A program made the translations under genes and the position numbers. A DNA stretch of 27,924 nt from a virus: positions 1 through 27,924 of the IMG/VR virus record IMGVR_UViG_3300025927_000123; one strand, written 5' to 3'. Shown here piece after piece: positions 1-12,090 of the stretch. Each line of letters starts with the position of its first letter. Position 1 is the first letter of the stretch. Below the pieces are notes generated by a model that ran no database searches, was not told the origin of the DNA, and saw only the letters and a list, made by a program, of their open reading frames with translations.

Positions 1-5
1 TATTA

Positions 6-118
6 TAGCGTTATAGCGTTATAGCGTTATAGTAATAAAAAATAATAAAGAATACAATAACTTACACCACATCATTTCGATAACGCGCTAAATTTTCATA
101 TGCGTTATTATGCGTTAT
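6..118. repeat. GCGTTAT iteron-like cluster in AT-rich DNA
   Basis: GCGTTAT occurs at 8, 16 and 24 (perfect 8-bp period, unit TAGCGTTA) and again at 102 and 112. An inverted copy, ATAACGC, lies at 80-86. An A/T-only tract at about 33-50 separates the groups. Direct repeats next to an easily melted tract, beside primase and helicase genes, are the usual make-up of an iteron origin. They could instead be operators for a regulator. No initiator box was recognised, so origin function is inference. A run of eight C follows at 119-126. Confidence 0.45.
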
Positions 119-142
119 CCCCCCCCGCCAGGAGTATGTTCT

Positions 143-1714
143 TTACTTGAAATACCACCATCTTCTTTGATTTGTTCCTTCAATATTGCGAACTTCCGAT
201 CTAAAACCGAAACGACGTAAAGCGGTATCCATTTTGCTTTTGTGTCTAGTAAAATCATTTGGTAAATCTGTATTGAATGCTGTTTCAGATCGTAACCACG
301 ACGTAATAAATTCGTGTCTAACTCCATCTTTCTTAGCTAGCTCCATATTATTGACATTTCCACTTACACCATCAAAATATGCCTCAATCCATTCATACTC
401 TGTCGTAACCAATTCTCTATCTGTAGTTTGACTAGTTTGTATCTCCATTTCGCCATTATTCAAAAACGGCAGCTTTCCACTATCATACATGTGTATTGCT
501 TGAGATAATATTTGTGGATACTCTCTTTCAAATTCTTCTAAATCCACAAATACATTCATAGGCAGATTTGATCTAATAGGAATACAACGTGTATTGCCAG
601 TAGGATCATTAAGATGATGCCAATTATTGGTTGTTACTATAGCAATACATCTTTTCAAATACGAAGCAAATTCCTTTGTCTGATAGAACACTTTGTATTT
701 GCTAATTGGATCTGTTACCCAACTCTTCCAAACATTAATACTTGTTTTGTCTAATCCACCTTCTTCATCCATTTCTACTATAGCCATGCCTACTGTAGAT
801 TTATCAAAATTAGTTGGGTCCTCTTTAATATGACCTTTAGTAAACCAAAACGATGGAACAAATCTCTTACACAGCTCTGACTTACCAATATTTTGAGCAC
901 TTTCTATAGCGAAATAATAACGCAATGGACATCCTGGCTCATAACATCTGCGCACCAACGATAACATTAACAATCTTGACCAAGTAGCACTCCACTGGCA
1001 AACATCCGCTTTAAGATATTTGACTGCTATACAATTCTCTTGCGTATATCTGTCAATACCATCCCACAATCCTCTATACCCATCCATCCATTGCTTATAA
1101 AAGTCAACTTTATTCGTTTGAGAAACAAATAATACAGCATCATCTAATGCACTAAACGTAATCTCAGTTGGGAATATAAATTCATTCAATGTTTGTTTCA
1201 ATCCTGTTTTATTGGTCAAATCATATCTATAATACGTTCTTTCCGATTCATTAACATTTAATACAAATTCTTTAGTTTTTGATTCCCAACACATTTTACT
1301 GAAATATATATCATCTGACATAGTATCAAATACAAATTGGACTTTGGTAGACGCCAGGAGTATTTGCTTATAGTTGAATGGATTGGCCACCGGCATACCA
1401 TTCTTGTTAGTTAATAAGTTCTCTGCCGTAGTGAATGCGTTTATAGTGCTTTTGACTTTGGCCTTTTCTCTATCATCAAATATATCTTTGATTCTGCCTT
1501 TGGATCCACGAACTGTCTGTGATATTTCTTCCAATATTCTATCGTAATGAAGACCGTCCAATTGCTTTAGTTGCCACAACCCCTCAATGAATACATCTCC
1601 ATCTCTACCATATAATATTGATTTGCGTTCCAACGCCTCAATTCTTTGTAATTTATTAATGAACATCTCCAATGCATCTATGATATCAAATATATCATTT
1701 GTATTAGAACTCAT
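143..1714 (-). CDS. VirE/VapE-family P-loop ATPase (replicative helicase-like)
   Basis: The 523-residue protein resembles the virulence-associated E (VirE/VapE) ATPases of phages and plasmids, which act as ring helicases beside a primase. A Walker A-like loop, ESAQNIGKSE, lies near residue 275. A Walker B-like AIVEMDEE lies near 313 and a sensor-like IVTTNN near 360. A conserved basic segment (NTRCIPI) follows. The first glycine of the usual GxxGxGKS loop is replaced. The start overlaps the end of the upstream primase gene by 11 bases, so the two are translationally coupled and probably form a primase-helicase pair. It lies directly before the GCGTTAT repeats. Family assignment is from motifs only. 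Confidence 0.75.
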   Translation of the reverse strand: MSSNTNDIFDIIDALEMFINKLQRIEALERKSILYGRDGDVFIEGLWQLKQLDGLHYDRILEEISQTVRGSKGRIKDIFDDREKAKVKSTINAFTTAENLLTNKNGMPVANPFNYKQILLASTKVQFVFDTMSDDIYFSKMCWESKTKEFVLNVNESERTYYRYDLTNKTGLKQTLNEFIFPTEITFSALDDAVLFVSQTNKVDFYKQWMDGYRGLWDGIDRYTQENCIAVKYLKADVCQWSATWSRLLMLSLVRRCYEPGCPLRYYFAIESAQNIGKSELCKRFVPSFWFTKGHIKEDPTNFDKSTVGMAIVEMDEEGGLDKTSINVWKSWVTDPISKYKVFYQTKEFASYLKRCIAIVTTNNWHHLNDPTGNTRCIPIRSNLPMNVFVDLEEFEREYPQILSQAIHMYDSGKLPFLNNGEMEIQTSQTTDRELVTTEYEWIEAYFDGVSGNVNNMELAKKDGVRHEFITSWLRSETAFNTDLPNDFTRHKSKMDTALRRFGFRSEVRNIEGTNQRRWWYFK

Positions 1715-2747
1715 TGTCTCTCTCCGCCTTTTCTTTGCCGTTGCGAATGCCGTCCCTTATCGTTCTGTCATCATTCTTAGTATTGCCTCGCCAATAATAC
1801 ATGCATTTGTCTAATAACTCATCTATAACCTCATCTTCATCAAGTAATTCTTGCCAAATCAATTCTCCCATCCAACTGCTAAATTTGTATAATGGTCTAT
1901 GTCTATTGCCTTCTGTAAGATCCCACAAATGCACTACTTTATCATCATCATCTTTAATATTGCCAGCTTTGAGAAATGCTTCAGCTTGTTTCTTAGTTCG
2001 CTTATTCAAACGATATGATCGCTCTCCAACAACTCTTTCTGTATCACTAATTTCTGTATAGATCTGATCTCCTGGTATCCATGCCACCAAATCCGAACAT
2101 GGATCTGCCATACCAATAAACGTTGGTCTCGCAACATAAATAGCCTGTATTGGGCTAAATAAAGCACTGTCCACCACTGATGTGAAGTGCTTTTTCAACG
2201 ACAAACAAGATATTCTTGCGCTATTCCACAAGAACAATCTGATATTTATACCAGGTTTTCTTTCGCTCAAGTAACTAGCACTTGGTATCGCGAATGCTTG
2301 AACACCACTGAGACCTAGCGCCAGGAGCATCTTTTGAGCATCTTGCTTTAGATCACCACTACATTTATCGTAATTGTCTACATCCAATGCATACCAATTC
2401 TGTTCTTGCTCAATAATAGTTGCCGGATCACCTTTAACTTTATCATCATACAACAATCGTCGTTGTTTCGGCAAAGTATCATCTTTAGCCACTCCGCGCA
2501 ATAAACAACACTTAGGCCTGTGCAACAAGTATCGCACAAGCTGACATAGATCATCTAAACACTCGATTTCTTTACTGAAGAATTTGTAATGATATGCGTT
2601 TTTGAAATCAATAATTCTGCCATCAGCAAATATAGTTTTGTTTAATTGCTTGCCACCAAGAGCAAGTGCAACCGTAACTATATTACGATTGGCAAACGTT
2701 TGGGGCTTTACTTCCGTATCGCGATCGACTATATACTCGTTGGCCAA
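1704..2747 (-). CDS. Putative archaeo-eukaryotic-type primase
   Basis: The 347-residue protein contains WYALDVDNYDK near residue 120, matching the hhDhD metal-binding motif of AEP/PrimPol primases. Downstream are a beta-strand segment (INIRLFLWN) and a C-terminal helical region (MGELIWQELLDEDE) like the PriCT-type tails of such proteins. It would make primers for phage replication with the VapE-type ATPase encoded immediately after it. The start is TTG at 2745-2747, with AAAGGA about 8 bases upstream. No ATG in frame is better placed. The SxH motif of canonical AEPs is not clear, so the call is moderate. Confidence 0.6.
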   Translation of the reverse strand: MANEYIVDRDTEVKPQTFANRNIVTVALALGGKQLNKTIFADGRIIDFKNAYHYKFFSKEIECLDDLCQLVRYLLHRPKCCLLRGVAKDDTLPKQRRLLYDDKVKGDPATIIEQEQNWYALDVDNYDKCSGDLKQDAQKMLLALGLSGVQAFAIPSASYLSERKPGINIRLFLWNSARISCLSLKKHFTSVVDSALFSPIQAIYVARPTFIGMADPCSDLVAWIPGDQIYTEISDTERVVGERSYRLNKRTKKQAEAFLKAGNIKDDDDKVVHLWDLTEGNRHRPLYKFSSWMGELIWQELLDEDEVIDELLDKCMYYWRGNTKNDDRTIRDGIRNGKEKAERDNEF

Positions 2748-2780
2748 TTACTTGATCCTTTCGAGTGGTTGGTTATCCAT
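2748..2780 (-). CDS. Possible leader peptide MDNQPLERIK before the primase
   Basis: A 10-codon ORF (MDNQPLERIK) starts with ATG behind a GGGGGGAACAAT ribosome site. Its TAA stop is immediately followed by the TTG start of the primase gene. The Shine-Dalgarno sequence of the primase lies inside this ORF. The arrangement would allow coupling or attenuation. It could also be chance, because ten codons is too short to judge by composition. Confidence 0.3.
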   Translation of the reverse strand: MDNQPLERIK

Positions 2781-2830
2781 ATTGTTCCCCCCAAAGACTA
2801 TATGGTTTCTATGCCTACTACATACTAACT

Positions 2831-2874
2831 AAGAGGCCAGGAGCGTCGCAAGCAAATCCTGGCCTCTTTTCTTC
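2831..2874 (+). terminator. Intrinsic terminator in the divergent control region
   Basis: A 12-bp perfect stem (AAGAGGCCAGGA with TCCTGGCCTCTT) encloses a 16-base loop and is followed by TTCTTC on the plus strand. One arm contains a copy of GCCAGGAG. No plus-strand gene ends here. It may stop transcription coming from the left, or end a short RNA begun in 2748-2830. The U-run is interrupted. Confidence 0.55.
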
Positions 2875-2879
2875 AGCAA

Positions 2880-2954
2880 CCTAACGTAACCGAACGGTAA
2901 GACTACGCTCCCGCGTTCGCGAGGTAAAGCGTCGAATATACTTAGGAGTGGCCG
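2880..2954 (+). promoter_or_regulatory. Structured leader pairing the SD of the GC-rich gene
   Basis: CCUAA-C-GUA (2880-2888) pairs with UAC-UUAGG (2939-2946). This closes a helix around ACGCU/AGCGU (2905-2909 with 2928-2932) and a CGC/GCG hairpin with loop GUUC. The closing helix includes the first bases of the Shine-Dalgarno AGGAG (2944-2948) for the ATG at 2955. It may limit translation. The fold was drawn by hand. Confidence 0.35.
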
Positions 2955-3353
2955 ATGGCTGAGACGCTGTTGTGCAAAGGATCATGGGCTCTCGGCACGG
3001 CATGCGGCCGGTGTCCGCGTTGCAAGAGATCGCCCCAACGAACGCAGGATCAGACAATGGACGATAGTTATATTTTGGCCGGCGCCAAGTTTTACGCGCG
3101 AGCCGTCGCGACGCGAGCAGTGAGTGGTGTCATTCCCGAGTGGGATGATGAGGCAGACGACGCCAACTGGCGCAGGACGCGCCCTGATGTCCGGTCCGGA
3201 TGCCTCGACATGGTGCGCGGGATTGTCGCCGCCGCCGGATTCCGGCTGGCGCAAGAGGCGGTCGGCAAACGCCGTCGAGAGACGCCGGCCCTGGCGCCGC
3301 GAGGCCGTGTGGAGAAGAAGCCCGAGGCGCACCGCAGCACCGAACGAAAGTGA
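2955..3353 (+). CDS. GC-rich hypothetical protein with CxxC motif
   Basis: The 132-residue protein has no recognised family. CGRCPRC near residues 18-24 gives two overlapping C-x2-C pairs, suggesting a small zinc site. The middle is acidic (EWDDEADD) and the C-terminus is strongly basic (GKRRRE, EKKPEAHR). AGGAG lies 6 bases before the ATG. Codon use is strikingly GC-rich at third positions, unlike every neighbour. The stretch from about 2955 to 3420 therefore looks like recently acquired, host-like DNA. Overlapping ORFs on both strands here are by-products of the high GC content. Confidence 0.6.
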   Translation: MAETLLCKGSWALGTACGRCPRCKRSPQRTQDQTMDDSYILAGAKFYARAVATRAVSGVIPEWDDEADDANWRRTRPDVRSGCLDMVRGIVAAAGFRLAQEAVGKRRRETPALAPRGRVEKKPEAHRSTERK

Positions 3354-3426
3354 ACCCCTGGGCTTCGCCGGAGGATGCTTCGCCGTTGCTGCGGCGCCAG
3401 AGGGTATCCCAATCTTTTGCATCCCA

Positions 3427-3705
3427 ATGATTAGATCTAATGATCGACGAATATTAATAGTTGACAAGTTGAGATTTCTTTGGGTATTGTGTGTTCTTGC
3501 TGACATGAAGGAACGCGGCCAGAAGATTACTTGGTTCAATTTAGAAAATGAACTCGGTCAAGAAACTCACGAGATGTTTCGTTTCTATCGCGATATAGCT
3601 ATGGACAACAAATATATAGCGCCAGATAGCCAAACTCTGACCGATAAAGGTCAAAGAGCAGTGGCTAACTGGCGCCATATACAAGCAAAGTTATTTGACT
3701 TCTAA
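3427..3705 (+). CDS. Small winged-helix-like protein
   Basis: The 92-residue protein starts MIRSNDRRILIVDKLRFLW. It alternates helices with a final strand pair (YIAPDSQTLTDKGQRAV) resembling a winged helix, as in small phage regulators. The family is not recognised. Its start coincides with a sharp return from GC-rich to AT-rich DNA. A longer frame open to 3124 runs through the GC-rich island and has shadow-like composition. No good Shine-Dalgarno is visible before 3427, so the start is uncertain. The last 15 bases overlap the convergent gene at 3691. Confidence 0.5.
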   Translation: MIRSNDRRILIVDKLRFLWVLCVLADMKERGQKITWFNLENELGQETHEMFRFYRDIAMDNKYIAPDSQTLTDKGQRAVANWRHIQAKLFDF

Positions 3706-3966
3706 TCGTTTCGATTCTGTAAATTTATGTAGCCATCTGTCATATTCAACCCTAGTATCAAATTCATTATCTCGATAAAATTTGTCCTCAATTCTTATTA
3801 ATTCACTGTGTAATTTTCTTGATAATGCTACTATTTTATCACCAATGATTACGCTGTTGCCTTTATTATTCAAATTGGCTATCTTTACCAATTTGTTTAT
3901 AACGTCATCCACTTCAATATAAATTTGTTTCATCAAATCCAACGTCATTGTTCTTTTATTACTCAC
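3691..3966 (-). CDS. Hypothetical helical protein
   Basis: The 91-residue protein (MSNKRTMTLDLMKQ onward) is rich in helix-forming charged residues. No family was recognised. The GTG start at 3964-3966 is chosen because AGGGAG lies 8 bases upstream. The frame stays open to an ATG at 4047 behind a strong GGAGG, but that stretch would have to encode a perfect GCGGCG-AAA-CGCCGC hairpin (about 3985-3999), which suits a leader better. It converges on and slightly overlaps the gene ending at 3705. Confidence 0.5.
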   Translation of the reverse strand: MSNKRTMTLDLMKQIYIEVDDVINKLVKIANLNNKGNSVIIGDKIVALSRKLHSELIRIEDKFYRDNEFDTRVEYDRWLHKFTESKRLEVK

Positions 3967-4070
3967 AGTATTTACTCCCTTTACTTCGCGGCGTTTCGCC
4001 GCTATATACCCGTTCGCGTGAGAGATTTGGGCCGGACACTCAAACATTTCTCATTTGCATACCTCCAAGT

Positions 4071-4100
4071 AAAATGGCCCTGTATACCAGGGCCATTTTA
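4071..4100 (-). terminator. Bidirectional intrinsic terminator
   Basis: The perfect 12-bp stem AAAATGGCCCTG/CAGGGCCATTTT has a 5-base loop, with A and T runs on either side. It lies just past the stop of the minus-strand gene 4105-4968, which it would terminate. It also separates that gene from 3691-3966. Confidence 0.8.
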
Positions 4101-4104
4101 TTAT

Positions 4105-4968
4105 TCACTCGGCAGTTTCTGTAGTCTCGCCAGGAGTAGTTACTTCTTCTGGCGGTTGGTTCTTTCTCATATTGACATACCAGAACCTCGGATTTGGTGA
4201 GCCATCCTCCAGAAATTCCGGCTGGTCAGCATAATACAGACCAATATAGCCATGCATTAGGTCGTTGTCCCAATGCCATCTTTTCGGACCAGAGAACTCT
4301 GTATTTTTCTTCGACATCAGGCTGCTGTCGAATGGTGTATTCAAGTATTGGTCATAGGTCATTCCGTTCTCATACAAGTTGAAGGAATGATACCCATGGC
4401 TACTGACTTGACGAGGATTATCGTCAACCAATATACGCAAGCGCAAACCTGCGTCATACTTGAAGGTCCTGGCATTGGGTTTCTCAGTAACCACACCCTT
4501 CGGTCTGCCCTTCCGGCCAGAAGTAGCTGGTGCATCTGATCCATTCAACTTGCGGTATAGTTCAGCACCAAGTTCCGTCAGCTGAACACCAGTCAACATT
4601 TTCGTTTCGTCATCGTAGACTGCATTAAAGATACCTCGCCCAACAACATTATCTCTCATGCTGGGCTGGAACCAAGGCTTCATATCCTTGTGCAGTTCCT
4701 CAAACGAAACTGTTTTGGTGATAGGATCAGTCTCACCAATATAAGTTTCCATGAAGTGCTTCACCACTTTCACTTCATTGGGCTTCAGCTTTCTCGGGCC
4801 AGAAGCCCGCTTTACTGGCTTTGCTTCTTGTTCCTCTGCCGTAACTGTTTCCTCCATCGGCACAGCAACTTGTGCACCAGTGGTATCCACAATTACTTCT
4901 GGCCCAGGAGGCAAAGGATGCTCAACGCTCTGAGTTGTAGACACAGTGTTACCTTTCTTGCGACTCAT
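4105..4968 (-). CDS. Hypothetical protein with AT-hook-like motif
   Basis: The 287-residue protein was not recognised. The N-terminus is low-complexity and acidic (EETVTAEEQEAKPVKR). A central GRKGRPKG resembles an AT-hook and suggests contact with nucleic acid. The C-terminal half (FKYDAGLRLRILVDDNPRQV, then YENGMTYDQYLNTPF) looks like a folded domain. The ATG at 4966-4968 is chosen over the upstream 5076 candidate because GAGGT lies 5 bases before it and the extra stretch is structured leader RNA. It ends in an acidic threonine-rich tail. A copy of GCCAGGAG lies near its 3' end. Confidence 0.55.
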   Translation of the reverse strand: MSRKKGNTVSTTQSVEHPLPPGPEVIVDTTGAQVAVPMEETVTAEEQEAKPVKRASGPRKLKPNEVKVVKHFMETYIGETDPITKTVSFEELHKDMKPWFQPSMRDNVVGRGIFNAVYDDETKMLTGVQLTELGAELYRKLNGSDAPATSGRKGRPKGVVTEKPNARTFKYDAGLRLRILVDDNPRQVSSHGYHSFNLYENGMTYDQYLNTPFDSSLMSKKNTEFSGPKRWHWDNDLMHGYIGLYYADQPEFLEDGSPNPRFWYVNMRKNQPPEEVTTPGETTETAE

Positions 4969-5104
4969 TACATACCTCACAATGTCAAAGATCATAGGCC
5001 GGACTGAAAGCGTATCGTTACGCTTCCGACAATAGCCTAGCCTATCCCATCGGCTGAGTAAACCCCCATAGGACAATAATCCGTCTGCGTAACGATGGCT
5101 ACAA
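4969..5104 (-). promoter_or_regulatory. Structured leader region upstream of gene 4105-4968
   Basis: On the minus strand this interval contains several hairpins: CCUAU/AUAGG, then CCGA-AUAG/CUAU-UCGG, then AAGCG/CGCUU with loop UAACGAUA. The plus-strand words AGCCTAGCCTATC (5036-5048) recur before the glycosyltransferase gene (5996-6008), so the two leaders share a regulatory element. A GCCAGGAG copy lies at 5117. No -35/-10 pair is convincing. Confidence 0.35.
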
Positions 5105-5965
5105 TTATCGCTGCGGGCCAGGAGTAAGATAACGTTGTTTGATTTCTGGAATTTGAGATAATTCTGCTTTCAATTTAGTTTGTTCTTTGAGTGCGTTTCG
5201 CGGACAATGAGCATAATATCTACCATCAGTCAATACAGCTTTACTGGTTAATGTTGGCTTCATTACCCATTTTGGATCATTCCAAATTCTACGAACCATT
5301 ACGCTGTTATATTGCTCTACAATTGATTTGCTGTATATGCCGTATCCAAGTTTGTGTTTAGAATGATGTTGTATTGGGCTCATCATCTTCCGTAATGCAA
5401 CATGTCCTTTATGGAACAATACTGAGCATAAATACTGTTCATCTAATGACCCTGGTAGATGTTCCATTTCATCCCAAGCAGCTGCCAAAGTGTAGATAAT
5501 ACCTCGGCCAGTAGGGAACCAAGGTTGTGGTCCAATAAATGTTGCCCTTCCGTGTCCGTAACTACCAAATGCTCCACCCATACCTAAGTAACATTGTCGA
5601 TTTGATACTTTGGAGAAATGTTCCATATCTTGTATGGCCTCAAGAATGAAATCCTCCCAACCATTATTAAATACAAAATCATCATCAGACAATATATGAT
5701 ATTTGGGCTGAAAATGTTTCTCAGCCAAAGCACATGCTAATGATCTTGCCTCTGCTAAGGATATACAAGGATCAGTTATCTTCAAATGTCGATATTCCGC
5801 CACGAAATTGTTACGAATAACAACTGAATTTTCGCTCCAATTTTTACCGTTGAGCAATATAGCAAATCCAATTCTCGAACTGCGACAACTCTCTGCTATA
5901 GACATAATGTATCTGGTTTCATTCGGCTGATGTGACGGCATCTCAAATATGATATCGGGAGTCAT
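5105..5965 (-). CDS. GT-A fold glycosyltransferase
   Basis: The 286-residue protein starts MTPDIIFEMPSHQPNE. The segment YHILSDDDFVFNNGWEDF near residue 90 carries a DDD/DxD motif that binds a nucleotide-sugar through a metal ion, following a Rossmann-like first half. This is typical of family-2-like GT-A transferases. Phage versions glycosylate modified DNA bases or the host surface. Nothing here decides which. AAGGGA lies 9 bases before the ATG at 5963-5965. The frame remains open to 6181 but that extension is the structured leader. It could act with the nucleotide-metabolism cluster at 15626-19547. Confidence 0.65.
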   Translation of the reverse strand: MTPDIIFEMPSHQPNETRYIMSIAESCRSSRIGFAILLNGKNWSENSVVIRNNFVAEYRHLKITDPCISLAEARSLACALAEKHFQPKYHILSDDDFVFNNGWEDFILEAIQDMEHFSKVSNRQCYLGMGGAFGSYGHGRATFIGPQPWFPTGRGIIYTLAAAWDEMEHLPGSLDEQYLCSVLFHKGHVALRKMMSPIQHHSKHKLGYGIYSKSIVEQYNSVMVRRIWNDPKWVMKPTLTSKAVLTDGRYYAHCPRNALKEQTKLKAELSQIPEIKQRYLTPGPQR

Positions 5966-6758
5966 CGTCTCATTTCCCTTACGCTCCGCTCTAGAGCCTA
6001 GCCTATCGTCGTGGGCGACGCTAGATACAAATTTAGACTGATCTAAATCATGGCTAAGAACGTATCGCGAACACAAACAGAACAAACCGAGGCAATCTAT
6101 CGCCCAGGAGGGTAGGCCTGGACTAATCGGCCAGGAGCCTGCAGACAGCTTGCATAGGCCCTGCAAACAGGCCTGTAGCATGGACCATGTGTTTGAAGCA
6201 TCAGATGCCCGTCTAAAAACAAAGATTAGTCTCGAAACTGGCTCTAGACGTCCAGTTTGTATTCGGGCAGGATATACATAGATAAAAGAAATAGCCTAAA
6301 CGGTCCCCGGCGGGGGCCGGCTCTTTGAAAAGGGAATCAGGATATCTCGGGAACCCCTAGGGCGGTATAGTCCTGGCGGGTTCCTAGGAACGTTTGGGCT
6401 TAGGCTCTAGAACGTCCCTAGTCGGAATAGGCTTATATACTGCGGATGTTTGTTCCTGCGGTAGCCTAGGACTGGACCGTAAACTTCCTTGTAGCGAAAG
6501 CGGGATTTTGGAAGATTGTAGCGGGCGGTTCTCGTTGGGTGGCCATTTCGATGGGGTATCGTTGACTTTCCGAAATTCTTTGAAACGGTGTATACGGTAG
6601 CGTAAAGGAACCTCTAGAGCGGGCTGAATATGCGCCCCTAGAACGGGAAACTTTGCGTGTTTCCGGTATATAGTAAATCTGGTCTAATCGTAACGAAATA
6701 GCCTCTTTACCTGCGACTATTGTTTGCGGAGGGGTTTATTACCGTTGCGATATCCATT
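5966..6758. other. Long noncoding, structured, CTAG-rich interval
   Basis: About 790 bases without a credible gene. A short frame at 6394-6600 has no ribosome site and shadow-like composition. The left part (5966-6180) is the minus-strand leader of the glycosyltransferase gene and includes a GCCAGGAG copy and a near copy. The right part holds many CTAG sites and GC-rich hairpins, such as GGUCCCC/GGGGGCC at 6302-6318. It lies between divergent transcription units, so promoters must be here, but none could be named with confidence. Confidence 0.5.
6349..6421 (+). ncRNA. Tandem hairpin element of unknown function
   Basis: Two adjacent compound hairpins share a boundary. The first pairs GGAACCC (6350-6356) with GGGUUCC (6378-6384) and inside it CUAGG with CCUGG. 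The second pairs CUAGG (6384-6388) with CCUAG (6417-6421), then CGUU with AACG and GGGC with GCUC. Such long nested pairing is unlikely in unconstrained DNA. It may be a processed leader or small RNA. No known class was recognised. Confidence 0.4.
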
Positions 6759-6846
6759 GTTCCTTTCTAGGTAATGTGGCTATTGTTAGAATGTTCTAAC
6801 AATAAAGGTTGGCAAGCCCTAAAACACAGAGCCCCTAGTAAGGAAT
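6759..6846 (+). ncRNA. Twister self-cleaving ribozyme gating gene 6856
   Basis: All twister elements are present. P1 is CUAGG (6767-6771) with CCUAG (6834-6838), extended past one U-U mismatch to 6759/6846. Then come conserved UAA (6772-6774), P2 UGUG (6775-6778) with CACA (6825-6828), GCU, and a 10-bp P3 hairpin (6782-6803). P4 is AGG/CCU with loop UUGGCAAGC, then AAAA and GAG. Expected cleavage is between U6772 and A6773. The Shine-Dalgarno AAGGA (6840-6844) lies in the 3' strand of extended P1, so cleavage would release the strand that hides it. The start codon is at 6856. Confidence 0.85.
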
Positions 6847-6855
6847 GTATGTAAA

Positions 6856-7329
6856 ATGTCAAAGCTCACTTCTGCTCAGCTGACCGCTTATCTTAACAAG
6901 GGTGACTTTGTTAAGCCGGTGTTTCACTTGTATGTGATCGAGTGCGCCAAAACGGGCGGCAAATACTATACCGTTCGCCAGAATATGTCCGGCGAGGCGT
7001 TTATGCGTATCGTGGCGATGACCGTCAATAACGATGCGGATCGTTCGCCTCTAGCTTGGAGTGTTCGCCGGTATGGCTTTAACTCCCATGAGATCCGGCG
7101 GATTGCTACCTATACTGACCGGACTGAGGCGAGGATTGTTGCCGCCAAGTTGATCGAAAATATCGCGTCTAAGGGTTTGTCGCTTAACGGTGGTCGTGCT
7201 CGCGTTGGCGCTTCCGATAATTGGAATTGGTATTCGGAAAATGAGGCCAAGAAGTTGATTGCTACTAGGACAGCAAAGTCCAAGAATAAGCCGTCCAAAT
7301 CCGCGCCTGTTCTTGAGGCGAGTGCGTAA
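6856..7329 (+). CDS. GIY-YIG-like nuclease domain protein
   Basis: The 157-residue protein has the layout of a GIY-YIG domain: LYVIECAKTGGKYYTV (degenerate GIY/YIG strands) near residues 25-40, then SVRRYGFNSHEIRRI with the usual arginine and tyrosine near 70-85. EARIVAAKLIE follows near 95, then SLNGG. Family members are homing or Slx-type endonucleases. The core triads are altered, so activity is uncertain. It is more GC-rich than later genes and ends in a basic, low-complexity tail. A twister ribozyme forms its leader, so its translation may depend on RNA cleavage. Confidence 0.5.
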   Translation: MSKLTSAQLTAYLNKGDFVKPVFHLYVIECAKTGGKYYTVRQNMSGEAFMRIVAMTVNNDADRSPLAWSVRRYGFNSHEIRRIATYTDRTEARIVAAKLIENIASKGLSLNGGRARVGASDNWNWYSENEAKKLIATRTAKSKNKPSKSAPVLEASA

Positions 7330-7334
7330 TACTA

Positions 7335-7364
7335 AGGGCGCCAGGAGAATACTTCTGGCGCCCT
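7335..7364 (+). other. Strong intergenic hairpin abutting the hammerhead
   Basis: AGGGCGCCAG (7335-7344) pairs perfectly with CTGGCGCCCT (7355-7364) around loop GAGAATACTT. No U-run follows, so it is not a classic terminator. After hammerhead cleavage at 7370 it would sit at the 3' end of the upstream mRNA and protect it from exonucleases. The loop side contains GCCAGGAG. Confidence 0.7.
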
Positions 7365-7365
7365 A

Positions 7366-7414
7366 CTGTAGTGGGATGTGTATCCTGCCTGATGAGCTCT
7401 AAAGAGCGAAACAG
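7366..7414 (+). ncRNA. Hammerhead self-cleaving ribozyme (type III)
   Basis: The full catalytic core is present. CUGAUGA is at 7389-7395, stem II is GCUC/GAGC (7396-7399 with 7404-7407, loop UAAA), and GAA is at 7408-7410. Stem III is ACAG (7411-7414) with CUGU (7366-7369), and the cleavable base is A7370. Stem I is seven pairs (7371-7377 with 7382-7388, loop GUGU). Cleavage after A7370 leaves a downstream RNA whose first base is already in stem I. It precedes CTAGAAAGGG and the ATG at 7438. Stem III is only four pairs, so activity may depend on loop contacts. Confidence 0.85.
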
Positions 7415-7437
7415 ATATCTAGAAAGGGAACGGAATA

Positions 7438-7632
7438 ATGGTAAATCTAAATAATAGCGAAGCAGCTATGTTGTTTGGGCAAGTCAAAAGCCATTGCAGC
7501 GCGCTAAAGAATTGGATCGCGACTGCAGTTGAAAACGATGATATTGGTCGCGCGAGAGAATTGATCAAAGAATTGCGTGAATATCAGTCGCTATATTCTA
7601 AATTGAATGGTGCTATTAAGTATGGCGATTAG
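7438..7632 (+). CDS. Small helical hypothetical protein
   Basis: The 64-residue protein is almost wholly helical (NNSEAAMLFGQVKSHCSALK, then GRARELIKELREYQSLYSKL) and was not recognised. It may be a small host-interaction or nucleic-acid-binding protein. The start is ATG 10 bases after CTAGAAAGG, as in six other genes here. The hammerhead ribozyme forms its leader. Its TAG stop overlaps the start of the next structured RNA. Confidence 0.65.
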   Translation: MVNLNNSEAAMLFGQVKSHCSALKNWIATAVENDDIGRARELIKELREYQSLYSKLNGAIKYGD

Positions 7633-7711
7633 CAGAGTGGGCCGCTAGTAATAGCGGCTTAATGCACCGGTCGAAAGACTGCTGGTCACAAGTCCAGATA
7701 TTGTGCGTTAA
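7632..7711 (+). ncRNA. Twister-like three-way junction, possibly permuted or decayed
   Basis: Hairpin GCCGCUA-GUAA-UAGCGGC (7641-7658) is preceded by CAGAGUGGGC, identical to the P2/L1/P1 strand of the twister at 8097. It is followed by UUAAUGCACC, like UAA-P2-(G/A)CC. Then come GGUC-GAAA-GACU and CUGG-UCACAAGU-CCAG, the twister P4 hairpin. Read this way the element is a twister circularly permuted within P2. Alternatively UUAAUGCAC (7659-7667) pairs with GUGCGUUAA (7703-7711) to give a plain three-way junction without catalytic loops. The usual AAA before P2 is missing. It occupies the same place as the real ribozymes. Confidence 0.5.
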
Positions 7712-7732
7712 ATCTAGAAAGGATAGGAACAA

Positions 7733-8053
7733 ATGGAAAAACTTTATACAGTCGCCAGTTATGTGGGTGACTATCCTCTTGAGAATCAAGATTGGTGGGC
7801 CGAAGGTTTTACTGATCTACAAGAGGCCATCGATGCTGCTCGTGAGCAGCATAATAAGATGTCGGTTAAGCATGCCGATGTCTATACAATGGTGCTTGAT
7901 TATGAACAAATTGAGGCTGGTGGTGACGATGTTCTGTGGCTTATTCACCAAGACAAGATCAGGATTGGTGAAGATGCAGAAGCATTCGCCAATTACTTGT
8001 CCAGCCGCGAGGATGATGATCCTCTCGGCACGTGGCACGGGAGGAACGAGTGA
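7733..8053 (+). CDS. Small acidic hypothetical protein
   Basis: The 106-residue protein (MEKLYTVASYVGDYPLENQD onward) was not recognised. It is acidic, with a predicted alpha/beta mix and a FTDLQEAIDAAREQHNKM helix as in small YopX-like or immunity-type folds, though no family can be named. The ATG lies 11 bases after CTAGAAAGG. Its leader is the twister-like three-way junction, and a GCCAGGAG hairpin plus a twister follow its stop. Confidence 0.6.
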   Translation: MEKLYTVASYVGDYPLENQDWWAEGFTDLQEAIDAAREQHNKMSVKHADVYTMVLDYEQIEAGGDDVLWLIHQDKIRIGEDAEAFANYLSSREDDDPLGTWHGRNE

Positions 8054-8076
8054 TGACTGACAATGATTGATGTCTA

Positions 8077-8097
8077 CTCCTGGCCGCGCGCCAGGAG
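8077..8097 (+). other. CTCCTGGC/GCCAGGAG hairpin abutting a twister
   Basis: An 8-bp perfect stem with loop CGCGC, made from one inverted pair of the dispersed octamer. Its final G (8097) is also the first base of the twister P1 that follows. After ribozyme cleavage at 8100 it would cap the 3' end of the upstream transcript. Confidence 0.65.
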
Positions 8098-8149
8098 CCT
8101 AATGTAGCCTTTGCCCGTCACAAGCCGGGATGCGAAATACAGAGTGGGC
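8097..8149 (+). ncRNA. Twister self-cleaving ribozyme
   Basis: P1 GCCU (8097-8100) pairs with GGGC (8146-8149). UAA spans 8100-8102. P2 is UGUA (8103-8106) with UACA (8138-8141), then GCC. P4 is CCCG (8114-8117) with CGGG (8126-8129), loop UCACAAGC, followed by AUGCGAAA and then GAG in the 3' L1 strand. The order and conserved bases match the twister consensus. Expected cleavage is U8100/A8101. P1 is short. It lies upstream of CTAGAAAGG and the ATG at 8171. Confidence 0.82.
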
Positions 8150-8170
8150 AACTAGAAAGGACAAGGAACA

Positions 8171-8308
8171 ATGTATTTGCTAATATTGATTGCTGGCGGA
8201 ATGCTGGCAATGGTATCGCTCATGTTCGATGTGGCTGTGGCCATTCTCTTTTGGTCAGTCGTCATCATGGGAACCATATTTCTGCTCAGAAATGCGGGAG
8301 TGTTGTAA
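8171..8308 (+). CDS. Small membrane protein (45 aa)
   Basis: The product is nearly all hydrophobic: MYLLILIAGGMLAMV, then VAVAILFWSVVIMGTIFLL, with a short basic end. It probably forms one or two membrane segments. ATG lies 11 bases after CTAGAAAGG, the same spacing as its neighbours, and its TAATG junction couples it to the next gene. A holin-like or superinfection role is possible but there is no direct evidence. Confidence 0.65.
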   Translation: MYLLILIAGGMLAMVSLMFDVAVAILFWSVVIMGTIFLLRNAGVL

Positions 8309-8517
8309 TGCAAGTAACATGGACTGGTGCTCCTCCATCAGAGTGTGATGTTTGCTCCCACAAGATCACAGCTGAATTCTATGATGCCCGAACAAGAACG
8401 GGCCAGTGGGGTTGTCTTTGCCACAATTGTTTCAAGTCTCACGGTGTGGGTCTTGGGCAAGGCAAAGGCCAGCATTACGAAAAGCTGGGTAGCGCATGGG
8501 TGAAAGTCAATGGCTAA
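8308..8517 (+). CDS. Small zinc-ribbon-like protein
   Basis: The 69-residue protein starts MQVTWTGAPPSECDVCSHK. Two cysteine pairs, CDVC near residue 14 and CLCHNC near 37, form a four-cysteine zinc site around a beta segment. The glycine-rich end (GVGLGQGKGQHYEKLG) recurs in many phage zinc proteins that bind nucleic acid or act as adaptors. The start overlaps the previous stop (TAATG), which is preferred to the in-frame upstream start at 8251. It overlaps the next gene by 8 bases. Confidence 0.7.
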   Translation: MQVTWTGAPPSECDVCSHKITAEFYDARTRTGQWGCLCHNCFKSHGVGLGQGKGQHYEKLGSAWVKVNG

Positions 8518-8740
8518 ATCCCCGATACAACAACGCGACGTTCATATCGCAAAGTTGGAGGCGCTCATTCGCGCTATCCAAGATGCGTTGAATACTTGCG
8601 AAACTGGCGATAATCTAGTGTCTGTCGCTAGAGCGGCACATCAAGCCGAACTCGTAATGTCCAAGATCACGAATATCGTTGACGGATATACTCATGTCAA
8701 CGAATGGGAGGATGTGGATAACGATTCCGCTCCGCTCTAG
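8510..8740 (+). CDS. Small helical hypothetical protein
   Basis: The 76-residue protein is predicted to form two helices (QRDVHIAKLEALIRAIQDAL and VSVARAAHQAELVMSKI) with an acidic tail (EWEDVDNDSAPL). The family is not recognised. ATG overlaps the end of the zinc protein gene, so both are co-translated with the membrane protein gene as a three-gene unit. A strong hairpin begins 7 bases past the stop. Confidence 0.6.
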   Translation: MAKSPIQQRDVHIAKLEALIRAIQDALNTCETGDNLVSVARAAHQAELVMSKITNIVDGYTHVNEWEDVDNDSAPL

Positions 8741-8746
8741 CCTATC

Positions 8747-8895
8747 CTCCCGCGCCTAGGCGAGCGTAGCCTAGGACTAGGCGCGGGAGCCTCCCGCTAG
8801 ACGCCCTAGGGACGATCCTAGGGCCGTAGAACGGAGGGGGCCGCTACCCTAGGCGCGGATCCTCTAGCCTACGCCTCTAGCGCGATCCTAGAGGC
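8747..8895 (+). other. CTAG-dense hairpin array
   Basis: About 150 noncoding bases carry roughly ten CTAG tetranucleotides as arms of hairpins. CTCCCGCGCCTAG (8747-8759) pairs perfectly with 8777-8789. CCCTAGG (8804-8810) pairs with 8817-8823. GCCTCTAG (8873-8880) pairs with 8888-8895, ending exactly where the twister P1 begins. It is probably a 3'-protecting structure for the upstream mRNA. It is not a U-tract terminator. Confidence 0.55.
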
Positions 8896-8952
8896 TTCTC
8901 TAAACCGCCATCGTCTGGTCCCAAGTCCAGAGTGCGAAAGGTGAGGGGAGAA
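8896..8952 (+). ncRNA. Twister self-cleaving ribozyme
   Basis: This is the clearest of the set. P1 UUCUCU (8896-8901) pairs with GGAGAA plus a G-U (8947-8952). UAA is at 8901-8903. P2 is ACC (8904-8906) with GGU (8940-8942), then GCC (8907-8909). P4 is CUGG (8915-8918) with CCAG (8927-8930) and loop UCCCAAGU, followed by AGUGCGAAA and GAGG. Expected cleavage is U8901/A8902. It abuts the 8873-8895 hairpin and precedes CTAGAAAGG and ATG 8975. Confidence 0.9.
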
Positions 8953-8974
8953 TGATCTAGAAAGGAACGGAACA

Positions 8975-9283
8975 ATGGCAATGATTTGGATAATGATGCA
9001 TCCGCGTGCTACCCATGATATGCTGGGATTCATTCCTGGCTTTCTGGATGAAAATGATCCGCGTTCTGCTAAGGAACAAATACATGCCAACTACATCTCT
9101 GGTTGGCATACTTTCCAGGGATTCAAGATGGCCGACAATGGCAATCTTCTGTATCCTGGTGATCCGCCAACAAGACTGCTCGCGATGACACACTTGCGAA
9201 ACGAAACCATCTTGTTCTATGAACATGATTGGTTGGCAATAATGCAGCGTGATGGTTCTTTTGAAGTTGCGAGGATTGACTAA
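8975..9283 (+). CDS. Hypothetical protein
   Basis: The 102-residue protein starts MAMIWIMMHPRATHDMLGFI and mixes strand and helix, with an aromatic-rich second half (ILFYEHDWLAIMQRDGSFEV). No family was recognised. ATG lies 10 bases after CTAGAAAGG and the leader is a twister ribozyme. It ends directly against the next start (TAA then ATG), so the two genes form a pair. Confidence 0.65.
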   Translation: MAMIWIMMHPRATHDMLGFIPGFLDENDPRSAKEQIHANYISGWHTFQGFKMADNGNLLYPGDPPTRLLAMTHLRNETILFYEHDWLAIMQRDGSFEVARID

Positions 9284-9481
9284 ATGACGCCAGAAGAACT
9301 GAATGAGCGATTATTGGATATAATATCTGAAAATCGCAAACTGCAACGACATATCAATGTCCAAATGATGACGATACTTTCAAGTATCATCGAGCGCCTT
9401 GATAACAATGAGCTTGATGAAGCTATGGATGTATTGAAAACTGTGCATGCACTATATGTGCATAAAGTAGCTGGTGACTAA
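9284..9481 (+). CDS. Small helical hypothetical protein
   Basis: The 65-residue protein is wholly helical and partly coiled-coil-like (NERLLDIISENRKLQRHI). The family is not recognised. The start abuts the preceding stop, with GAGG about 10 bases upstream inside the previous gene, so translation is coupled. A perfect 11-bp hairpin and a twister ribozyme follow. Confidence 0.6.
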   Translation: MTPEELNERLLDIISENRKLQRHINVQMMTILSSIIERLDNNELDEAMDVLKTVHALYVHKVAGD

Positions 9482-9490
9482 ACTGGTGAA

Positions 9491-9517
9491 CCTAGGCCCT
9501 ATACGCTAGGGCCTAGG
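9491..9517 (+). other. Perfect 11-bp intergenic hairpin
   Basis: CCTAGGCCCTA pairs with TAGGGCCTAGG around loop TACGC. No U-run follows. It precedes the twister at 9532 by 14 bases and would shield the 3' end of the upstream message after cleavage. Confidence 0.65.
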
Positions 9518-9531
9518 CGCGCTAGACTATC

Positions 9532-9587
9532 GCTTAGTAATGTAGCCAATGGCGGTGGCCAGCCCGCAAGTAATACAGAGCCAAGGC
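9532..9587 (+). ncRNA. Twister self-cleaving ribozyme
   Basis: P1 GCUUAG (9532-9537) pairs with CAAGGC (9582-9587) with one A-A mismatch and one G-U. UAA is at 9538-9540. P2 is UGUA (9541-9544) with UACA (9574-9577), then GCC (9545-9547). P4 is GCGG (9552-9555) with CCGC (9564-9567) and loop UGGCCAGC, then AAGUAA and GAG. The loop has CAGC where the consensus has AAGC, so it is the most divergent of the four. Expected cleavage is U9538/A9539. It precedes CTAGAAAGG and ATG 9610. Confidence 0.75.
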
Positions 9588-9609
9588 AATCTAGAAAGGG
9601 ACAGGAACA

Positions 9610-9903
9610 ATGGAAGATGAAAGGCGGAATCGGCAAAGCCTCATAATGCTTGAATTAACTGAGGTGATGAAGACACATTGGGATGCTGCGCTTGCCAAAA
9701 CAATTGCTAGTCCTAATCGCGCCAAACGTATCATGGGCGATGTAGTTGCGGACATCATTATGGCATTATCATGTTCTATTTTAGCTTTTACTATGTCTAT
9801 GATGGATTTGTCTGAAGAAAATATGGAACAATTCATCGAACATTTTGCCGCCGATATGAGAGATCTATATCACAATTATTTGAGGAATGACAATGACCTC
9901 TGA
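9610..9903 (+). CDS. Helical hypothetical protein
   Basis: The 97-residue protein starts MEDERRNRQSLIMLELTEVM. A hydrophobic helix near residues 45-63 (VVADIIMALSCSILAFTMSM) could be a membrane segment or a buried helix. An acidic C-terminal helix follows. The family is not recognised. ATG lies 11 bases after CTAGAAAGG behind a twister. It overlaps the next gene by 17 bases. Confidence 0.6.
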   Translation: MEDERRNRQSLIMLELTEVMKTHWDAALAKTIASPNRAKRIMGDVVADIIMALSCSILAFTMSMMDLSEENMEQFIEHFAADMRDLYHNYLRNDNDL

Positions 9904-10102
9904 GGACCGAAACAAAGTCAAACTGCTTTGGGAACAAATTCTCAAGACAGTGAAACGTCCTGATATAGTCATGTTCATCCTCAGCGATATGGATGCTGAT
10001 GGCGACAATAATACCCAAGTAATGACCAACTTGGATAAGATTGATGCCGTTAGATTCATGAATGATATTGCTAGGCTTGCCGGACCCATTGTGCGTAATT
10101 AG
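9887..10102 (+). CDS. Small hypothetical protein
   Basis: The 71-residue protein (MTMTSEDRNKVKLLWEQILK onward) is mainly helical with a short acidic loop (DMDADGDNN) that resembles a calcium-binding loop but is too short to call. GAGGA lies close to the first ATG (9887). A second ATG at 9893 is equally possible. It is translated with the preceding gene through a long overlap. Confidence 0.55.
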   Translation: MTMTSEDRNKVKLLWEQILKTVKRPDIVMFILSDMDADGDNNTQVMTNLDKIDAVRFMNDIARLAGPIVRN

Positions 10103-10117
10103 TCTTTGTCTTGATTC

Positions 10118-10166
10118 CTCCTGGCCGAGAACGCGGGCCAGGAGCGACCAGGACAAAGTGTTCTGG
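10118..10166 (+). other. Double-hairpin processing-like module
   Basis: CTCCTGGCC (10118-10126) pairs with GGCCAGGAG (10136-10144). A three-base CGA linker follows, then CCAGGAC (10148-10154) with GUUCUGG (10160-10166). The same word order (TGATTC, octamer hairpin, CGACCA) recurs at 10550-10586. It takes the place of the ribozyme modules found upstream of earlier genes. Confidence 0.6.
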
Positions 10167-10176
10167 ATGAGGAACA

Positions 10177-10452
10177 ATGGAGAATACAATGACTCTTAAT
10201 GAGTTGGAAACAGCATATAAACAATGTAGTAAAATTGCAACTCCACATCGAGAACTAAACTTTGATTATCTTCGCAAAATTGCGAAAGATGATGCAATTA
10301 TCAAAGGGACATTGGTGTTCATCGAAGAACACAATACTGGATATGCCGGTCATTTGGAACGTTGGATAATAGTTATTCCAACGAAAGATGAAAAAACAAT
10401 ATCAGTTCAAATTGATCTTCTGCCAGGACAAATCAAAAATGCCTCCCGCTGA
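10177..10452 (+). CDS. Hypothetical protein
   Basis: The 91-residue protein starts MENTMTLNELETAYKQCSK and has an alpha/beta pattern ending in strands (ERWIIVIPTKDEKTISVQI). The family is not recognised. GAGGAACA precedes ATG 10177. A second in-frame ATG lies four codons in. It overlaps the following small membrane gene by 14 bases. Confidence 0.6.
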   Translation: MENTMTLNELETAYKQCSKIATPHRELNFDYLRKIAKDDAIIKGTLVFIEEHNTGYAGHLERWIIVIPTKDEKTISVQIDLLPGQIKNASR

Positions 10453-10546
10453 TATTATGACAGTAACGATCAGCATATACATGGCTGGATTTATCTTTGC
10501 TAGTCTAGCTATAGTATTTCTGGGGTGGTTACTCAGTAAACTATGA
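10439..10546 (+). CDS. Small membrane protein (35 aa)
   Basis: MPPADIMTVTISIYMAGFIF is followed by ASLAIVFLGWLLSKL, giving a single hydrophobic span with a short polar N-terminus and a basic end. A CCAGGACAAATC ribosome region precedes it within the upstream gene. It is a separate frame from 10177-10452. Function unknown. The conserved hairpin module starts 9 bases past the stop. Confidence 0.5.
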   Translation: MPPADIMTVTISIYMAGFIFASLAIVFLGWLLSKL

Positions 10547-10554
10547 CGTGATTC

Positions 10555-10597
10555 CTCCTGGCCGGAATACGGGCCAGGAGCGACCACCTCATGGTGG
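10555..10597 (+). other. Double-hairpin processing-like module
   Basis: CTCCTGGCC (10555-10563) pairs with GGCCAGGAG (10572-10580). A CGA linker follows, then CCACC-UCAU-GGUGG (10584-10597), then AAC and CTAGAAAGG. About 35 bases of the first hairpin and its flanks are near-identical to 10110-10150. Confidence 0.6.
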
Positions 10598-10621
10598 AAC
10601 CTAGAAAGGAAAATAAATGAT

Positions 10622-10876
10622 ATGGAAAAGTTACGACTTGTTATCGCCATCAGTATGCTTGCTGTTGGGGCCAATGCACAAACTCTCAATACTAGGAAAG
10701 ACAGTATTGGCCAAACGCACATCGACGGCACTGATCGGAATGGTAACCATTTCTCTGGTATTTCTCGCAGAGATAGTCTTGGTCAAACTCATACTTCTGT
10801 CCGTTCTGACAACAGGACAATAGAATGTATTGGGCGGACTAACTCACTTGGCTATACTCGGCAGGAGTGCCACTAA
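10622..10876 (+). CDS. Secreted repeat protein with signal peptide
   Basis: Residues 1-20 (MEKLRLVIAISMLAVGANAQ) form a signal peptide with an AxA-type cleavage site. The mature 64 residues carry three copies of a (D/N)S(I/L)G(Q/Y)T(H/R) motif and two cysteines (ECIG, QECH) that could form a disulfide. It is likely periplasmic. Similar small exported phage proteins act in superinfection exclusion or lysis control, but this family is not recognised. ATG lies 13 bases after CTAGAAAGG. A competing out-of-frame ATG at 10617 has better spacing but gives an implausible product. Confidence 0.65.
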   Translation: MEKLRLVIAISMLAVGANAQTLNTRKDSIGQTHIDGTDRNGNHFSGISRRDSLGQTHTSVRSDNRTIECIGRTNSLGYTRQECH

Positions 10877-11208
10877 TGGTTACCAATCGGAAACTAAAAT
10901 TGGTTGTCGAGAACTCACAGCCTCGCGCCGGAACCAAATGGCAGGGATTGGACAACATTTTCATCCATCGGTCTCAAATAGAATTGGGAACGAAACTGCT
11001 TAATTTTGGTAGACTAGACCACGACAGTATTTGGGAAGTCCAAACGATATTCTCTGTGTTTGAGAATTCAGGACGCAGAAAGTATTTGGACAATATTGAT
11101 AAATTGAATGATCAAGTTGTATTGAAACGTATCGGCAGTAACGAAACGCGACAAATGACGTTCGTCTATCTATCCTATTCTGCTATATGGAGATTGATGA
11201 ACGAATAG
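10876..11208 (+). CDS. Hypothetical protein
   Basis: The 110-residue protein starts MVTNRKLKLVVENSQPRAGT. It looks alpha/beta with a basic mid-section (SGRRKYLDNIDKL). The family is not recognised. The ATG overlaps the previous stop (TAATG) and AGGAG lies 9 bases upstream. A GTG three codons earlier is less likely. It is co-translated with the exported repeat protein. Confidence 0.6.
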   Translation: MVTNRKLKLVVENSQPRAGTKWQGLDNIFIHRSQIELGTKLLNFGRLDHDSIWEVQTIFSVFENSGRRKYLDNIDKLNDQVVLKRIGSNETRQMTFVYLSYSAIWRLMNE

Positions 11209-11219
11209 CACAGGTTGAC

Positions 11220-11273
11220 GTAGTGAGCGCCAGAAGTAATTCTGGTGGCTCATTACGCCAGCGATAGTGCTGG
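11220..11273 (+). other. Double-hairpin processing-like module
   Basis: A long hairpin, GUAGUGAGC-CCAGAA with UUCUGG-GCUCAUUAC (11220-11256), carries the GCCAGAAG variant. It is followed two bases later by CCAGC-GAUAGU-GCUGG (11258-11273), then AUCTAGAAAGG and ATG 11294. Confidence 0.6.
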
Positions 11274-11293
11274 ATCTAGAAAGGAATGGAACG

Positions 11294-11497
11294 ATGGAAA
11301 ATACTGATATGATCAAACTTGATATAGCGGAAATGATTCTGCGAAGCAACAATTGCAGAATCACTTCGTTTCTCTCCAGTGGCTCTACTCAATATGTGGT
11401 AAAGAAACGCAAATTGAGTATATCGCCAAGCTTTCTCAAAATAGGAACATTGTGTGATTGGATAATCAACAATGAAACCTATATTGAGGGGGCATAA
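11294..11497 (+). CDS. Small hypothetical protein
   Basis: The 67-residue protein starts MENTDMIKLDIAEMILRSNN and continues with a basic stretch (YVVKKRKLSISPSF). It was not recognised. ATG 11294 is chosen over the in-frame 11267 because CTAGAAAGG lies 10 bases upstream. It is followed closely by the coiled-coil gene. Confidence 0.55.
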   Translation: MENTDMIKLDIAEMILRSNNCRITSFLSSGSTQYVVKKRKLSISPSFLKIGTLCDWIINNETYIEGA

Positions 11498-11499
11498 AT

Positions 11500-11685
11500 T
11501 TGGCCAAGAAACCAATTAAGAAAGAATCAGAAACCGACAGAAAAATTCGGTTGCTGGAGAACAAGATCAAGAAAATGGACAAAACGATCAAAGAATTAGA
11601 GCGTAAGATAAATCACGTGTATGATATTGATTCCTCACCAATAAAAGATCAAGATGTATTGAATAAGCCTGCTGTTCAGCCGTAA
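11500..11685 (+). CDS. Small coiled-coil protein
   Basis: The 61-residue, highly charged protein has a heptad pattern (IRLLENKIKKMDKTIKELER) predicting a coiled coil, flanked by basic N-terminal and flexible C-terminal ends. The start codon is TTG, with GAGGGGG about 9 bases before it, two bases after the preceding stop. It may be an oligomerisation or adaptor protein. Not recognised. Confidence 0.5.
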   Translation: MAKKPIKKESETDRKIRLLENKIKKMDKTIKELERKINHVYDIDSSPIKDQDVLNKPAVQP

Positions 11686-11693
11686 CTATATTT

Positions 11694-11737
11694 GGCGCCA
11701 GGAGAATACTTCTGGCGTCGCTTTGCTCGATTGAGCA
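11694..11737 (+). other. Double-hairpin processing-like module
   Basis: GGCGCCAG (11694-11701) pairs with CUGGCGUC (11712-11719). It is followed by UGCUC-GAUU-GAGCA (11724-11737) and then UGAAAGG. It is built like the modules at 10118, 10555 and 11220 and repeats the GCCAGGAGAATACTTCTGGC word seen at 7340. Confidence 0.6.
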
Positions 11738-11754
11738 TGAAAGGAACTGGAACA

Positions 11755-11994: not shown

Positions 11995-12022
11995 AGGGAT
12001 TTACTTCCCCTTTCGTTCGCGC

Positions 12023-12090
12023 TAGACTTACTCCGCCCTTGGATGGGCAAATGATTTGTAATGGCGCAAATCATTATTGGAGCAAGTCTA
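12023..12090 (+). ncRNA. Three-way-junction leader sequestering SD and start
   Basis: UAGACUU (12023-12029) pairs with AAGUCUA (12084-12090) and UCC (12032-12034) with GGA (12079-12081). They enclose GCCC-UUGGAU-GGGC (12035-12048) and a 9-bp hairpin, AAUGAUUUG with CAAAUCAUU (12050-12058 with 12067-12075). The helix holds the Shine-Dalgarno GGAG (12079-12082) and the A of the ATG at 12090. It is therefore a candidate translational switch: riboswitch, thermosensor or protein-binding leader. No known class was recognised. Confidence 0.55.

Follow-up and report, generated by a model that had tools for sequence, protein, structure and literature searches.

A GC-rich island with a chimeric open reading frame in a 41%-GC phage, probably acquired from a GC-rich phage

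The window analyzed here is a single IMG/VR virus record of 27,924 bases from a soil phage, with 41% GC, identical to part of a 45,177-base contig (L002). It encodes a VapE-like protein and, by PHROG matches, a DNA polymerase and a tail-fibre-like protein. The locus under study lies between a primase-like gene on its left and a 322-residue gene on its right, and consists of a hairpin, a leader, a GC-rich island holding a 132-residue open reading frame (ORF), and a small gene that also occurs at this site in related phages. The coordinates of these features are collected in Table 1.

Table 1. Features at the island and its flanks (window positions).
Feature	Position	Strand	Remarks
Hairpin, then short T-rich tract, in the divergent intergenic region; recipient site	2831..2868	+	12-bp perfect arms
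Own leader of the gene at 3427	2881..2943	+	aligns with L068, L069, L070 and L071 when the island is left out
GC-rich island, inserted	2944..3426	+	GC 0.646 against a mean of 0.408; absent in 4/4 relatives read; partly shared with GC-rich phage contigs
Ribosome-binding-like leader and ATG (AGGAGTGGCCGATG)	2944..2957	+	start of the L004 homology
Chimeric 132-residue ORF	2955..3353	+	alignment A2; CxxC near the N-terminus
N-terminal CxxC stretch, 34 residues	2955..3056	+	in L004; absent from L009 and L028 (alignment A2; the L006 contig begins later)
Core small-protein gene of GC-rich phages, 66 residues	3057..3254	+	90-97% amino acid identity to L004, L006 and L009
Internal scrap of group II intron domain I; gives the ORF its C-terminus and stop	3291..3363	+	73 bases
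Distal island part	3364..3426	+	seen only in this phage
Resident downstream gene, 92 residues, predicted winged-helix-like	3427..3705	+	same start in 4/4 relatives, 36-58% identity

The island spans 483 bases with a GC content of 64.6% (0.645 for 2955-3425), whereas windows of this length taken with overlap from the remainder of the record (1320 in all) average 0.408 (sd 0.044) and reach 0.559 at most. The sliding-window analysis thus upholds the GC-rich island with abrupt borders that a sequence-only reading of this DNA had described. Measured in 30-base steps, GC climbs to 0.60 at 2941 and drops to 0.37 at 3421. The fall near 3420 stands as originally placed; the left step, first put at 2890-2955, lies nearer to 2941 than to 2890, the bases 2881-2940 (GC 0.50-0.53) being the phage's own leader. 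Codon analysis agrees with the foreign composition claimed in that reading: third-position GC is 0.69 in the 132-residue ORF, while six other genes lie at 0.27-0.38, and the codon score towards GC-rich phages is +0.28 per codon, against -0.23 to -0.77 in 12 other genes, each left out in turn. By part, the score is near neutral for the N-terminal piece (+0.04), +0.28 for the core and +0.55 for the tail. The CxxC gene attributed to the island is present as an ORF, and further, overlapping frames are open on both strands; one of them (3124-3705, plus strand, GTG start) runs into the downstream gene.

Other features of the record were seen away from this locus. The palindrome CCTAGG occurs 11 times against 3.5 expected, a count reached in 0/100 shuffles, with clusters at 8755-8853, 6356-6470 and 9491-9517. 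The segment 8736-8905 is the second GC peak of the record and folds well (z -2.1, 7/200 shuffles equally good). Among the related phages, L068 has five such palindromes in 78 bases and L071 five in about 870 bases; the other relatives' loci counted hold 0-4. A Type-P5 twister ribozyme matches 7631-7697 on the plus strand with 51.2 bits (cut-off 37.6), and a 32-base gene-start leader (like ATCTAGAAAGGA..GGAACAATGG) is found in six copies, at 7417, 7712, 8150, 8955, 9589 and 11274, the one at 8955 having further matches in relatives, among them L034, L036, L037 and L041.

The 132-residue ORF is a patchwork of a 34-residue CxxC stretch, a core of about 66 residues (35-100) and an intron-derived tail. 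The N-terminal stretch gives weak tblastn matches only (best E 0.8, to a Rhizobium phage), and the genes of L009 and L028 start at the core's own methionine. The structure model predicts helices at residues 37-57, 65-74 and 77-109, where the local pLDDT is mostly 86-89; the whole model, with a mean pLDDT of 63.7, retrieved no viral structure match at E<=0.001. The ORF has no Pfam match at E<=1 and one match at E 0.04 to a PHROG of unknown function. An NCBIfam match to DpdF (14.9 bits against a cut-off of 550) was without weight, and tblastn against phages gave only weak matches, to tail collar proteins in three Bordetella phage records (best E 0.4). At a guess, held with more doubt than belief, the captured protein may be a small helical accessory protein from the early or recombination region of its donors.

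A structured RNA was rejected as an alternative product of this region. Four Rfam matches were found in 2750-3500 at E<=5, all of them far below their cut-offs, bases 3286-3412 fold no better than shuffled sequences (z -0.68), and no tRNA was found. The window and L009 cores differ at 21 of 177 bases, distributed 4, 1 and 16 over the three codon positions, a pattern that supports a protein rather than an RNA. These differences correspond to a dN of 0.023 and a dS of 0.56, and the L004 and L009 cores compare similarly (dN 0.015, dS 0.47); both the ratios and the codon-position pattern indicate that selection has maintained the core in GC-rich phages. The window core differs from that of L004 or L006 by 3/177 bases, too few to tell whether selection continues on the core in this phage. 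At one position, 3106, another contig of the same phage (L007) carries the L004/L006 base, so that the window base there is probably a later change.

Copies of parts of the island were found in contigs of GC-rich phages. A first scan of viral contigs gave eight loci, of which L002, L003 and L007 belong to the same phage as the window and the remaining five are GC-rich. When alignment A1 was used for a second scan, ten loci were obtained, namely the same eight contigs and the new L028 and L029. The single-protein query recovered 8/8 known core carriers, and alignment A1 recovered the carriers in the viral_contigs collection. L004 is 98.1% identical to window 2944-3255 over 312 bp and L006 is 98.6% identical to 3070-3363 over 294 bp; L009 is 86.5% identical to 3044-3272. 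The L006 contig starts at the equivalent of window position 3070 and L004 covers 2944-3255, and no single donor contig spans the piece. The GC-rich contigs include close pairs: L004 and L005 show no difference over 6377 bases, L008 and L009 are 99.95% identical over 6497 bases, and L006 is related to L004 (93% over 1842 bases). The GC content is 63-64% in L004, L006 and L009, 70% in the rest of the L004 contig and 73% in the rest of the L006 contig, and the rest of these two contigs codes, as judged by eye, for apparent phage tail and virion proteins. Elsewhere, the DNA of this phage (the window and the rest of the L002 contig) matches the GC-rich contigs examined with 65-80% identity over only 48-369 bases. 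One tail protein encoded by this phage shares 48-49% identity with a protein of L004 and L006, which suggests that the recipient and these phages have related hosts. Metagenome 3300026088 yielded both L006 and L046, the latter a relative of this phage with 79% polymerase identity over 401 residues.

The more distant cores in L028 and L029 share 70-76% protein identity and lie in a 64-residue frame in L028 and nearly the same one in L029. The core gene is followed in L028 by Gp157 and ERF genes (Pfam, above cut-off) and in L029 by a RecT match below cut-off; L009 has an integrase-like gene. In L029, a DNA methyltransferase gene that runs intact in L028 seems to be interrupted by an ORF (1087-1899) which by eye resembles a LAGLIDADG endonuclease. 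Far from the island, neighbouring genes at window 12114-13511 share segments with L078 (bases 1-12500 of the L009 contig) at 34-84% protein-level identity, a likeness that may be an older sign of exchange or of shared descent.

The tail of the ORF derives from an internal piece of a group II intron. The 73 bases of the scrap match introns on plasmids of Rhizobium (91.8%, 73 bases), Sinorhizobium (94.1%, 68 bases) and, at 77-83%, two Novosphingobium plasmids. In the two rhizobial plasmid records read, reverse transcriptases are annotated about 250-350 bases downstream, and a block of about 2 kb (L011 2878-4877) is common to the Rhizobium and Sinorhizobium copies; if this block is taken as the intron, the scrap begins about 120 bases inside it. 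L006 has the same 5' breakpoint and retains 204 nt of the intron, with an RF02001 match of 55.3 bits, after which homology to L004 resumes. The window keeps 73 bases, and its sequence switches at 3364. Homology to the intron stops at 3363, and neither the 5' nor the 3' end of the intron nor domains V and VI were found; the window yields no RF00029 match and, even at E<=5, no RF02001 match. Pfam finds no reverse transcriptase or maturase in the 132-residue ORF, and the scrap is too short for one, although ORF-less group II introns do not need either. Beyond the switch, bases 3364-3426 have no match in the loci compared, and a 20-mer from this stretch matches only two same-phage contigs in viral_contigs.

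The corresponding gene end is variable in the GC-rich phages. L009 lacks any insert there; in L006 the intron scrap is present, and L004 carries, close by, another insert of about 80 bases. Judging from these sequences, the gene end looks break-prone. The L004 insert (1438-1516) sits in the same small gene near the position of the L006 scrap and has no Rfam match.

The empty site can be read in related phages. A query with the polymerase returned 21 loci; the polymerase is identical in five, one of which is L002's own contig. Sixteen of the 21, together with L054, made up the 17 relative records that were searched for the core; L031, L033, L044 and L046 were left out. Seven of the 17 hold the primase-like gene on the left of the island and six the 322-residue gene on its right, and at least three (G009, G015 and G025) are pieces of the same or a near-identical phage without a primase-like gene match. 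An alignment A1 search, run without a positive control of its own, did not find the core protein in any of the 17, of which only the seven with the primase-like gene might cover the site. We read the site in four records, G012, G014, G017 and G018; three more that match the primase-like gene (G016, G019 and G024) were left out. The primase-like proteins of these four are 48-61% identical to that of the window, so the relatives are not very close, and the 322-residue gene lies farther from the primase-like gene in G014 and G018 than in G012 and G017.

In all four, the resident gene follows a leader alignable to 2881-2943, with no island in between, which places the insertion between the leader and the ATG at 3427 and bears out the claim of the sequence-only reading that the DNA was captured. 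A clear BLAST match of the leader exists only for G017/L069 (79.6%, 49 bases), the other relatives resting on alignment. Upstream of the leader, the hairpin has a folding energy of -23.4 kcal/mol (z -4.5), and hairpins of different sequence precede the same gene in L069 (z -5.6) and L068 (z -5.4), the two relatives folded. A terminator scan did not flag the hairpin in the window. The resident gene gives a structure model with a pLDDT of 82.5 and weak PDB matches to the winged-helix regulators AF1382, DtxR, MarR and YodB, none of them at E<=0.001.

The island itself was seen in 4/4 contigs of this phage found to cover the site: the window, L002, which is identical across the island, L003, and L007, which crosses the left edge only. 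L003 comes from another dataset and spans the two edges; over 5323 bases it has 16 substitutions, none of them within 2944-3426. Fourteen of these 16 differences sit in 109 bases of the primase-like gene (window 2454-2562), a pattern suggestive of a short recombinational replacement. Inspection by eye revealed no clear target-site duplication or microhomology at the edges of the island. The left edge carries the motif AGGAGTGGCCGATG, present in one copy in the window and found before genes once each in L004 and L005 and twice each in L008 and L009. The piece begins at a ribosome-binding-like motif that recurs in these GC-rich phages and stops just short of the resident ATG, which gives the captured ORF a site to start translation downstream of the resident leader.

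Together, these data argue for a recent acquisition of the island by the 41%-GC phage from a GC-rich phage of the L004/L006 type, a reading to which we assign a probability of roughly 0.85. Confirmed homologs of the core were found only in this phage and in GC-rich phage contigs, and since the core belongs to the latter, the transfer appears to have run from GC-rich to GC-poor. In the donor lineage, the small gene would already have been joined to the domain-I scrap of a rhizobial-type group II intron. The transfer was presumably an illegitimate recombination event, through microhomology or an annealing protein, with both phages in one cell, and would have placed the piece between the resident leader and its gene. 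Transcripts from the resident leader would then translate the captured ORF first and the resident gene second, the regulator-like resident becoming the unbroken second member of a two-gene unit. The intron-derived tail would be an accident, and the captured protein may be only a passenger here.

The alternative that fares best, an improbable one in our judgement, is that the island is host or plasmid DNA taken up as a moron, as the sequence-only reading had proposed, and that the GC-rich phages received it from the same bacterial source. The close identity of the scrap to plasmid introns of Rhizobium and Sinorhizobium would fit such an origin, and the GC content would suit many alphaproteobacterial genomes. 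These strong bacterial matches, however, are limited to the intron part. No coding match was found in plasmids by tblastn of the protein against the plasmid collection, and a whole-protein scan of genome_contigs, with one genome per species, found no relative at the close range to which that scan is confined. A scan of genome_contigs with the core alignment returned only two matches, both in Paenibacillus (38-41% over about 48 residues), which were rejected as chance when the DNA was read. The near-identical copies and the confirmed core relatives are instead carried by phage contigs, two of the relatives lying close to recombination genes of phages, which speaks against the proposed source.

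Group II intron machinery offers a second route that we regard as very unlikely, in which an RNA running from the donor ribosome-binding site into the scrap was reverse transcribed and joined into the phage. The piece does start at a ribosome-binding site and enter group II intron sequence in the sense direction, but the scrap lacks intron ends, no reverse transcriptase was found with it, and 3364-3426 would be left unexplained. The 5' breakpoint is already present in L006, so the join between gene and scrap probably predates the transfer, which argues against this route. Less probable still is a chimeric assembly that joined a GC-rich phage fragment to the contig. Every record is a metagenome assembly, and a single metagenome gave both a GC-rich carrier and a relative of this phage, but L003, with its substitutions and its separate dataset, has both edges and L007 has the left one, so that a chimera would need an identical origin more than once. 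That the island is an old resident of the phage group with an odd composition fits its presence in every contig of this phage that covers the site, and is scarcely credible given its absence from the four relatives read and its 98% DNA identity to unlike phages.

Acquisition from a GC-rich phage can be compared with known forms of gene gain. Phage genomes are mosaics in which extra genes, or morons, are gained one at a time between resident genes. The island resembles a moron in its absence from the relatives read, its foreign composition and its position between genes, neither of which is broken, and in these respects the original suggestion of a moron stands. It differs in that donor-type phages can be identified and in that, in place of an intact moron gene, it holds a 132-residue chimera whose tail comes from an intron. 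It also showed neither a promoter nor a terminator of its own in a limited scan of the plus strand for sigma-70-like promoters, a single promoter type, and terminator-like sites, a scan that missed the 2831-2868 hairpin as well. In T4-type phages, cassettes of an early promoter and a stem-loop serve gene reshuffling. The arrangement seen here is similar, with an inserted small ORF following a hairpin and a leader; unlike those cassettes, the inserted piece brought no hairpin of its own, and the leader is only a putative promoter.

According to PMC12350094, phages had been considered to lack group II introns; the paper gives matches in 9,229 of 15.7 million IMG/VR contigs. The island is like those cases in having group II intron sequence within phage DNA, and unlike them in holding an internal domain-I scrap without ends or domains V and VI that is translated in an ORF. 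Bacterial group II intron copies are mostly truncated or inactivated, according to PMC4424553. No paper on this exact case was among the literature matches listed, from a search mostly outside subscription journals.

Gene capture between phages is already well known, and the present case leaves the view of phage evolution unchanged. As a speculation that we consider unlikely in its general form, unlike soil phages that share a host may trade single small genes at ribosome-binding-site edges, with intron debris at a break-prone gene end helping to make or carry the piece and becoming new protein tails. Donor-type sequence, recipient site, empty site and intron scar are seldom all visible together. 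Here they allow one to infer that the capture ran from a GC-rich to a GC-poor phage, that its edges lie at a ribosome-binding site and a start codon and, from the 98% identity, that it is recent, and they provide an example of group II intron debris that forms part of a phage open reading frame.
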